Assembly: GCF_001426885.1 (NCBI RefSeq)
Contig: NZ_LMFP01000001.1
Span: 64,834 to 128,833 of the forward strand
DNA: 64,000 nucleotides
Direction of reading: 5' to 3'
Origin: Pelomonas sp. Root1444
GTDB lineage: Bacteria; Pseudomonadota; Gammaproteobacteria; Burkholderiales; Burkholderiaceae_C
The notes below the pieces were generated by a model. That model worked only from the letters and a program-made list of their open reading frames with translations, searched no databases and was not told the origin of the DNA. Of the stretch, positions 1,927-4,740 are shown one piece after another (position 1 is the first letter of the stretch; every line of letters begins with the position of its first letter). A program made the translations under genes and the position numbers.

Positions 1927-2505
1927 TCAGAACCCCAGGCCTTCGCCGGCGCCAGCCAGCGTCGCCACCCCCAGCGCCGCAAAGATGACGGCGGCCACGC
2001 GGTGCACCAGCGTGACCGGCAGCTTCTGCGCCAGCTTGCCGCCGACCAGCACGGCCGGCACGTTCGCCAGCATCATGCCGGCCGTCGTGCCGGCGACGAC
2101 GCCGATGAAGTCGGCCGGGAAGCGCGCCGCCAGCGCGACCGTCGCGATCTGGGTCTTGTCGCCCATCTCGGCCAGGAAGAAGGCGACCAGTGTCGTCACG
2201 AACACGCCGTGGCCGGGCTTGGGCGCCTCGTCCTCGTCGAGCTTGTCGGGGATCAGCATCCAGCCCGCCATCGCCAGGAACGACAGCCCGAGGATCCAGC
2301 GCAGCGCCACCGGGCCGATGACGCCGGTCAGCCAGCTGCCCAGCGCGCCGGCGGCGGCATGGTTGAGCACGGTCGCCACGAAGATGCCCAGCACGATGGG
2401 CCAGGGCCGTTGGAACCGCGCCGCGAGCATGAAGGCGAGGAGCTGGGTCTTGTCGCCGATCTCGGCGAGGGCCACCAGGCCGGTGGCGATCAGGAAAGCT
2501 TGCAT
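1927..2505 (-). CDS. TMEM165/GDT1 (UPF0016) cation transporter
   Basis: Inner-membrane protein of the UPF0016 family, whose characterised members export Mn2+ or exchange Ca2+/Mn2+ for protons. The two hallmark repeats are both intact: AEIGDKTQ near residue 15 and AEMGDKTQ near residue 114, each at the start of a three-helix half. Total length is 192 residues with six predicted helices and an acidic central loop (about residues 88-98). A manganese role is inferred from the family. The short leader shared with the divergent esterase gene shows no recognisable yybP-ykoY manganese riboswitch. Confidence 0.88.
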   Translation of the reverse strand: MQAFLIATGLVALAEIGDKTQLLAFMLAARFQRPWPIVLGIFVATVLNHAAAGALGSWLTGVIGPVALRWILGLSFLAMAGWMLIPDKLDEDEAPKPGHGVFVTTLVAFFLAEMGDKTQIATVALAARFPADFIGVVAGTTAGMMLANVPAVLVGGKLAQKLPVTLVHRVAAVIFAALGVATLAGAGEGLGF

Positions 2506-2612
2506 GACCGGATTGGACCATTGCCTCGACGGCGCCCTCTATGCTGCCGCCCCGCGGGTACTGGCGCGGCGGAATGAACCGGATGACGTTGAAGTTGAAG
2601 AGGAAGGGATCG

Positions 2613-3752
2613 ATGCAAAAAGCCATGGTCGGTTGGCGGGCGCGGCTGCGTTGGGCTTTGGTGGCCTGCGTGCTGGCACATGACGCGGCAGCGGTCGCCC
2701 AGGAGGTGGTGCGCATGGAGGCCGAGCCGGCGGGGCTGAAGCCGGCCGCGGCCCATGTGCACGGGCGCGCGGTCACCCAGGCCGACGGGACCTGGCTGCG
2801 CCAGTGGCCCGGCACGTACTTCGAGACCGCCTTCCAGGGTGACGAGGTGTACTTCCGCGTCGGTACGGGCGAGGTCAGCCTGCGCCTGAGCGTCGACGCC
2901 GACGAGGCGGTCGCGCTGGTGAAGCCGGCCCCTGGCCTGTACCGCGTGTCCCGGTTCAAGCGCGGCGGCGAGCACCTGCTTCGCACCACCGTGGCCAGCG
3001 AAAGCCAGGGCGGCCCCACCGCGTTCGGCGGCTTCCTGCTGGGGGCCGGCGCCCGGCCGGCCGCGCTGCCGCGCCGCAGCCGGCAGGTCGAGTTCATCGG
3101 CGATTCCCACACCGTCGGCTACGGCAACCTGTCGGCCAGACGCGAGTGCACGCAGGCCGAAGTCTGGGCAACCACCGACACGTCGCGAGGCGTCCCGGCC
3201 TTGGTGGCTGCGCACTACGGCGCCGACTACCAAGCCAACGCCATCTCCGGCCGCGGCATCGTGCGCAACTTCAACGGCTTTGCCGCGGACACGCTGCCCG
3301 AGGCCTACCCCTTCGCCCTCTTCGACAAGAGCGGCAAGGCCAGCGACGCGGCCTGGCGGCCGCAGGTCATCGCCATCAGCCTGGGCACGAACGACTTCGC
3401 GACCGCGCTGAACCCCGGCGAGCGCTGGACCACCCGCGAGCAGCTGCGCGAGGCCTACGAGGCCACCTATGTCCGGTTCATCGACGAGCTGCGCCGGCGC
3501 CATCCGGGCGCCTACATCGTGCTGTGGATCGCCGCTGCCGACGGTTCGGAACTCCAGAACGAAGTGGCGCGCGTCGCGGAGCTGGCGAAGCGCGCCGGGC
3601 AGGCGCGCGTCGGTTTCGTGCCCGTTCCCGGCCTGGGCATGTCCGGCTGCGACTGGCATCCGAGCGTGGCGGACGACCGCCAGATCGCCAACGCGCTGAT
3701 CCGGCATCTGGATCAGCAGAAGGACCTTTGGCAGTCAGCCCGCGGGAATTGA
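2613..3752 (+). CDS. Exported SGNH/GDSL esterase, carbohydrate esterase family 2-like
   Basis: Predicted secreted deacetylase. A hydrophobic signal peptide (about residues 1-28, ending near AAAVAQ) precedes a beta-rich N-terminal domain and an SGNH hydrolase domain with block I FIGDSHTVGYGN (nucleophile Ser165), block III-type LGTNDF, and a C-terminal GCDWHPS giving Asp347 and His349. This two-domain order matches CE2 enzymes that remove acetyl groups from plant polysaccharides; the substrate here is inferred. The frame is open back to 2541, but GAGGAAGGG precedes the ATG at 2613 and the signal peptide starts there. The protein is 379 residues. Divergently transcribed from the UPF0016 gene. 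Confidence 0.85.
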   Translation: MQKAMVGWRARLRWALVACVLAHDAAAVAQEVVRMEAEPAGLKPAAAHVHGRAVTQADGTWLRQWPGTYFETAFQGDEVYFRVGTGEVSLRLSVDADEAVALVKPAPGLYRVSRFKRGGEHLLRTTVASESQGGPTAFGGFLLGAGARPAALPRRSRQVEFIGDSHTVGYGNLSARRECTQAEVWATTDTSRGVPALVAAHYGADYQANAISGRGIVRNFNGFAADTLPEAYPFALFDKSGKASDAAWRPQVIAISLGTNDFATALNPGERWTTREQLREAYEATYVRFIDELRRRHPGAYIVLWIAAADGSELQNEVARVAELAKRAGQARVGFVPVPGLGMSGCDWHPSVADDRQIANALIRHLDQQKDLWQSARGN

Positions 3753-3799
3753 GAGGGCCGCATGGGTCCCGACGATGTCAGGCCGCCTTCAGGCAACCC

Positions 3800-3862
3800 T
3801 CAACGCCGCGCACGCCGCCTGGCCACGCCGGCGACGACGGCCAGCCCCACCAGGCCGAGCGC
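3800..3862 (-). other. Stranded PEP-CTERM helix and arginine tail
   Basis: Untranslated in-frame continuation of the preceding exported-protein gene. It encodes a 14-residue hydrophobic stretch and a terminal RRRARR before TGA, i.e. the second and third parts of the PEP-CTERM signal. It would be made only on read-through or suppression of the TAG. Confidence 0.75.
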
Positions 3863-4525
3863 CTAGGACGCAGGCTCCGGGACGGGGGCGAGGGTGACGG
3901 AATAGCTGGCCGTCACCGTGCCGCCGCCGGCCACCGTGGCGAGCAGCTGCTGGTAGGACAGGTTGGCGAACTGCGTCGTGAGCACGCCGACGTAGGGCGT
4001 TGCCTCGCCCTGGGCGCTGACGAAGACGCCCGTGCCGGCGATGGACAGCGTCGACGCGCTGGCAGACAGGTTGACCAGGTTGACCGCCGAGCCGGGGGGC
4101 GAGCAGATCTGGCCCGCGGCTGCCGGCGAGAAACACAGCGCCGAGCCGAAGCTCGCGGGCAGCAGCGCAGTGGAATCGAAGTGCACGCCCGGCGCTGCCG
4201 CGAAGCTCAGCAGGTTGCTGTTCACCGCGACGCCCGGCGCCACGTCCAGCACCGTGCCCATGGTGCCGACGAGCGACGCGAAGGTGCCCGTGCCGGCCAG
4301 CACGAAAAAGCTGCCCGTGCCGCCGCCGGCGGGCGAGAAGTCCAGGCCGGCGCTGCTCAGGTTGAAGACGCCCGCCAGCTGCAGCTCGCCAGTGACAGGC
4401 GCGGCTTGCGACCCCGCGGCGGCGAGGCCCAGGGCCAGCGTGGCGGCGGCGCGGGCGCACCAGCGGCCCCGCGGGGCGCGGCGCGGCACGCGGGCGGCAA
4501 GGGATCGATCGGCTCGGACTTGCAT
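3863..4525 (-). CDS. PEP-CTERM-type exported protein, sorting tail cut by TAG
   Basis: Exported protein of unknown function, 220 residues as read. It has a long arginine-rich signal peptide (about residues 1-42, hydrophobic core then SQAAP) and a Gly/Ala/Ser-rich beta-type body. It ends exactly at VPEPAS, the start of a PEP-CTERM sorting signal, and then meets a TAG at 3863-3865. The same frame continues past the TAG with ALGLVGLAVVAGVARRRARR and stops at 3800-3802, which is the hydrophobic helix and arginine cluster that should follow the PEP motif. Many family members have Trp (TGG) after PEPAS, so one G-to-A change would explain the stop. AGGAG precedes the chosen ATG by seven bases. No exosortase gene is in the window. 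Confidence 0.78.
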   Translation of the reverse strand: MQVRADRSLAARVPRRAPRGRWCARAAATLALGLAAAGSQAAPVTGELQLAGVFNLSSAGLDFSPAGGGTGSFFVLAGTGTFASLVGTMGTVLDVAPGVAVNSNLLSFAAAPGVHFDSTALLPASFGSALCFSPAAAGQICSPPGSAVNLVNLSASASTLSIAGTGVFVSAQGEATPYVGVLTTQFANLSYQQLLATVAGGGTVTASYSVTLAPVPEPAS

Positions 4526-4740
4526 GGATGTCTCCTGAAAGGGTGCGAGCAGTCCCGGCTCGCTCGGTGGAGCGGCGACTTTAGAGCGGGGCTCGCGCGA
4601 CGGGTTGCGCCCGTCGCCCCCTAGAAGGCGAGGCGGCGATGAGGAAGGCTTGACTGACGCGGACATCTCCCGCCGCTCCTGACACGGCTTGACAGGCGAC
4701 CCGGCGCAGCATGCGTGCCTTCAACCCCAAGGAGCGCCTC

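Follow-up and report, generated by a model that had tools for sequence, protein, structure and literature searches.

A PEP-CTERM sorting signal split by an in-frame TAG in an accessory gene, probably through a recent nonsense change

In the published model of the PEP-CTERM/exosortase system, as given in the excerpted text of PMC1569441, a hydrophobic helix and a basic cluster are proposed to keep the protein at the inner membrane. The PEP motif would then sit at the periplasmic face, where EpsH, the exosortase, is proposed to cut and sort the protein. According to an excerpt of PMC9850573, a PEP-CTERM gene is important for floc formation in Aquincola. Here, we describe a gene in which a TAG codon cuts off the helix from the PEP motif. 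It lies in the window, by which we mean the whole 64,000-nt stretch of DNA that was analyzed, and an esterase gene converges on it. The features of the locus are as follows.

2482..4655, no strand assigned: accessory segment holding the esterase and the PEP-CTERM gene, with a 24-nt imperfect repeat at both ends (comparison with Pelomonas sp. Root1237)
2616..3752, plus strand: GDSL-type esterase with a carbohydrate esterase 2 N-terminal domain (Pfam); start uncertain, frame open from 2541
3800..3802, minus strand: TGA, the next in-frame stop (translation)
3803..3862, minus strand: 20 open codons after the stop, ALGLVGLAVVAGVARRRARR, forming a hydrophobic helix and an arginine cluster (16.5 bits on the tail profile)
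3863..3865, minus strand: in-frame TAG separating the motif from the helix (open frame; flagged in profile matches)
3866..3883, minus strand: VPEPAS, the PEP motif of the PEP-CTERM signal (translation; NF035944 match)
3863..4525, minus strand: PEP-CTERM gene of 220 codons, left without a function by Pfam annotation, ending VPEPAS-TAG (open frame)
4403..4525, minus strand: apparent N-terminal signal peptide with a basic start, a hydrophobic stretch and an SQA-A cleavage-like site (by eye)
4531..4536, minus strand: AGGAGA, Shine-Dalgarno-like, with a 5-nt gap to the start codon ATG, 4523-4525 (by eye)

Translation bears out the original prediction, in both its description and its coordinates, that VPEPAS is followed by TAG and then, in the same frame, by a helix and arginines up to a TGA. 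By ancestry, this is a PEP-CTERM gene, with all three parts of the signal sharing one frame of the DNA; the encoded product lacks the helix and the basic cluster, so the translated protein does not itself qualify as a PEP-CTERM protein. The 220-residue product of 3863-4525 matches no Pfam family over the cut-off, no NCBIfam family at E 10 and no solved structure at E 1, and an AlphaFold prediction based on three sequences was unusable (mean pLDDT 31.9). No decay is visible in the gene body outside the stop, and G+C at third codon positions is 0.92 upstream and 0.90 downstream of it. Neither a sigma-70-like nor a terminator-like site was found in 3700-4740. A two-mismatch sigma-54 site lies upstream of the gene at 4706-4720, and an upstream sigma-54 site is a reported feature of PEP-CTERM genes in the excerpt of PMC1569441. 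Control of the gene by sigma-54 gains no support from this match, however, as the window contains 71 two-mismatch sites versus 98.7 expected by chance. The tetranucleotide CTAG occurs 15 times in the 64,000-nt window, against approximately 65 expected, and the stop codon forms one of these occurrences, within the only CCTAGG of the window.

The stretch that follows the stop is a genuine PEP-CTERM tail, far above chance. If translation is continued past the TAG and the stop is given no residue, the NF035944 (PEPxxWA-CTERM) model scores 24.0 bits, below its cut-off of 35 bits, with an E-value of 3.7e-4 for the genome. All 24 of its positions are matched, in agreement with the proposal that the DNA still contains every part of the signal and that the stop parts the motif from the helix. 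Because the motif contributes to this score, the tail was also tested on its own, using a profile of 35 intact tails from the same genome, taken from this position onward, with the window tail left out of the building. These tails were drawn from 34 loci, and L110 and L130 yielded none under the extraction expression; since that expression demands an unbroken tail, the unbrokenness of the 35 is no evidence, and the TIGR02595 and NF035944 matches are used for that purpose instead. The window tail scores 16.5 bits on the profile. In a leave-one-out test, the 35 tails themselves range from 8.2 to 32.2 bits, and 18 of them fall below the window tail. None of 1172 other post-stop stretches reaches 16.5 bits, the next best scoring 6.4. 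The open frames behind this control, 1173 in number, each span 100 codons or more and come from the window and loci of the same genome; 909 of them stay open for at least 14 codons past the stop. Spurious frames are among them, which makes the control broad and less than strict.

Elsewhere in the genome, the signal is found without a stop. All 36 TIGR02595 matches at E 0.001 are free of one, as are 47 of the 48 NF035944 matches listed (scoring covered 150 of 170 first-look candidates), and the exception is the gene at 3863-4525. The original prediction had raised the matter of an exosortase elsewhere in the genome, and such enzymes are indeed encoded there. PF09721 (exosortase) has two matches, and both XrtA (TIGR03109, 339 bits against a cut-off of 208) and XrtB (TIGR03113, 371 bits against a cut-off of 275) are present. 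Among the 54 tRNA matches of the genome, we found no suppressor tRNA with the anticodon CTA; ARAGORN named the anticodons of 50, and the remaining 4 are partly masked, with anticodon loops that visual inspection assigns to Val and Asn. Ordinary tRNAs may misread TAG at a low level. ARAGORN also reports a tRNA-Thr with the anticodon AGT at 2460-2532 of locus L056, where tRNAs for Glu, Pro and Asp form a small cluster with it. This anticodon is unusual in a bacterium.

No ortholog of the gene was found in 59 other genomes at E 0.001 or in plasmids, and a pattern search that returned 595 stretches from genome contigs gave no confirmed case. In 20 genomes of the genus searched at E 1, weak matches alone appeared (best E 0.0047), and those at L010, L011, L012, L013, L025 and L027 were inspected. 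L011 and L012 are distant homologues, with 33% and 32% identity, respectively, in which the PEP motif continues into a helix and arginines. Nothing was found at L010, and L025 has weak matches only. Both L027, where the matching frame is unrelated, and L013 were rejected as homologues; the L013 match carries a TAG flag, but it runs antisense to other genes, lacks a PEP motif and is due to chance. An alignment profile run over 399 genomes of the order retrieved mostly the PEP tails of other proteins; among its matches, L252, L253, L145 and L163 have intact tails and an unconvincing similarity in the body.

The proposal that one base had changed a TGG codon to TAG, so that the lost residue was a tryptophan, is not supported by these comparisons. 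The stop position is occupied in the 35 tails of the same genome by Leu (11), Tyr (11), Ala (8), Trp (3), Ser (1) and Pro (1), and in the 12 that have PEPAS by Leu (6), Ala (5) and Trp (1). The two distant homologues read PEPASLAL (L011) and PEPATVGL (L012), with Leu and Val at this position. With the stop read as Trp, the NF035944 match rises to exactly the 35-bit cut-off, but we rejected this rise as circular, since the NF035944 model is itself centered on that Trp.

To look for the same arrangement elsewhere, the pattern V/L-PEP-xx-TAA/TAG-x-L, which covers TAA and TAG and not TGA, was searched in 399 genomes including that of the window, whose own site was recovered as a positive control. 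The search gave 25 matches in 23 of the 399 genomes, 24 of them outside this gene in the 398 others. Most are chance matches, because a control pattern read backward is commoner still. A genuine tail follows the pattern only in the gene of the window, and the matches from the 398 other genomes include no second intact gene stopped at the same place. The second-best tail, that of L263 (G142), scores 7.8 bits. At 1501-1526 of this locus, the PEPGT of a PEP-CTERM signal is immediately followed by TAG; the gene around it has clearly decayed, since it contains earlier stops and its tail is broken. Two loci flagged with TGA among the listed matches of the order-wide profile, L250 and L251, were rejected as further stopped signals, since each has a PEP tail that is open all the way to its arginines. 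No title among the papers listed from the open-licence literature concerns a stop codon within a PEP-CTERM signal, although that search was thin and listed readthrough and pseudogene titles without the word PEP-CTERM.

The surroundings of the gene suggest that it is accessory. Among the best 80 loci of a glycerol kinase scan, the nearest is that of Pelomonas sp. Root1237 (L170; 89%). NCBI resolves the genus name Pelomonas to Roseateles, so the window probably belongs to that group. In L170, the genes that flank the segment adjoin each other; they encode a membrane protein that we take to be GDT1-like (90%) and a glyoxalase-like protein, so assigned by Pfam (84%). L170 aligns to the window up to 2505 and resumes at 4632, and the two matches overlap by 24 bases of L170. 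This single stretch in Pelomonas sp. Root1237 corresponds to two copies in the window, at 2482-2505 and 4632-4655, which are identical at 19 of 24 positions; of 63915 other positions, only the far copy matches the first copy this well. On account of the L170 junction and the repeat at both ends, we regard the esterase and the PEP-CTERM gene as a two-gene accessory segment, which may have been gained in the genome of the window or lost in L170. Both flanks are present in 3 of the best 80 loci, namely L170, L178 and L189. In the latter two, they lie approximately 3.2 kb apart, and neither the esterase nor the PEP-CTERM gene has a match there, which agrees with either direction of change. The 24-nt repeat is a copy of the start of the GDT1-like gene and resembles a target duplication. 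The esterase frame, 2541-3752, matches PF17996 (1.2e-18) and PF13472 (4.4e-13), with NF042969 at 94.6 bits, under its cut-off of 500. Its relatives are distant, being found in 4 of 119 other family-sampled genomes at E 1e-20 or better, with 32-34% identity.

Taken together, these data indicate that a recent nonsense change probably interrupted the sorting signal of an accessory PEP-CTERM gene. This is the simplest account and the most likely one, and an assembly error is its chief rival. In its favor are a tail that is genuine and intact and other signals of the genome that contain no stop, the presence of XrtA and XrtB together with the lack of a CTA anticodon among the 54 tRNA matches, the 24 pattern matches in 398 other genomes, none with an intact tail, and the accessory nature of the gene, which has no close relative in the genomes searched. 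Two points count against it. The undecayed body, together with the third-position G+C of 0.92 and 0.90 on the two sides of the stop, is equally compatible with an assembly error and with a retained function, and no ortholog was found that would date the change or show the former residue. Deamination at a methylated cytosine was rejected as the cause of such a change, as PF00145 (C5-methyltransferase) is absent from the genome at E 0.001; in the control for this search, the family has matches in 10 of 14 genomes. A base-call or assembly error, by which the gene would be intact and an ordinary PEP-CTERM gene, is possible if rather unlikely. The window tail scores like the tails of intact genes, and according to the excerpt of PMC11017572, bacterial assemblies contain many internal stops of technical origin. 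Against it, though weakly, this assembly has 33 contigs and is rated 100% complete and 0.02% contaminated, and the 36 TIGR02595 matches are all read without a stop.

The stop could instead have been kept by selection because a soluble, exosortase-independent protein is better, with the tail surviving as a relic. Although the gene body is intact and the product ends near the exosortase cut site proposed in the excerpt of PMC1569441, the supposed relic is so far undecayed, and we consider this explanation quite doubtful. It is very improbable that the stop is leaky or regulated, such that low-level read-through would send a minor share of the product to be sorted while most of it stays soluble, giving one gene two destinations. 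An intact in-frame tail directly after a single stop and both exosortases in the genome would suit such a scheme, but a tRNA to serve it is missing from the 54 matches, no intact gene is so arranged among the pattern matches of the 398 other genomes, none of the other 47 listed signals in this genome is either, and no ortholog was found that could show stop and tail conserved together. That a gene merely happens to end in VPEPAS, followed by random GC-rich sequence resembling a helix and arginines, is scarcely credible. The window is 70% G+C, which favors Arg and Ala codons in any frame, but none of the 1172 control stretches comes near its tail, and shuffling the window 100 times gives an expectation of 0.00 for the stop-in-signal pattern.

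If a recent nonsense change did occur, the ribosome would halt after VPEPAS, and the product would leave the cytoplasm via its apparent signal peptide. The truncated protein would have neither the membrane helix nor the arginine cluster to hold it at the inner membrane for the exosortase, whether XrtA or XrtB, and going by the published model of the system, it would end soluble, unsorted and unattached. The tail, still intact, would have had little time for decay. For now, the locus amounts to a single accessory gene with a broken sorting signal. Should the stop be real, it offers a small natural test case, a presumably exported protein with a PEP motif and without the helix and arginines, and the location of this product would reveal what the helix and arginines do. 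Read-through, in the very improbable event that it occurs, would be an unusual bacterial way to split one product between two places.

Three known systems invite comparison. Fungal and animal read-through with dual localization, as described in the excerpt of PMC4207609, likewise places C-terminal targeting information behind a stop, but the present case is bacterial, and no read-through or conservation was seen. The PEP-CTERM/exosortase system (TIGR02595, NF035944; XrtA, XrtB) is matched by a signal peptide-like start, a motif, a helix and arginines in one frame and by XrtA and XrtB in the same genome, and the locus differs from it in the stop between motif and helix, which leaves the encoded protein without two of the three parts. 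The gene resembles ordinary bacterial nonsense pseudogenes in being accessory and intact apart from one in-frame stop. Unlike in those, however, the stop here removes the sorting signal alone and leaves the exported body whole.
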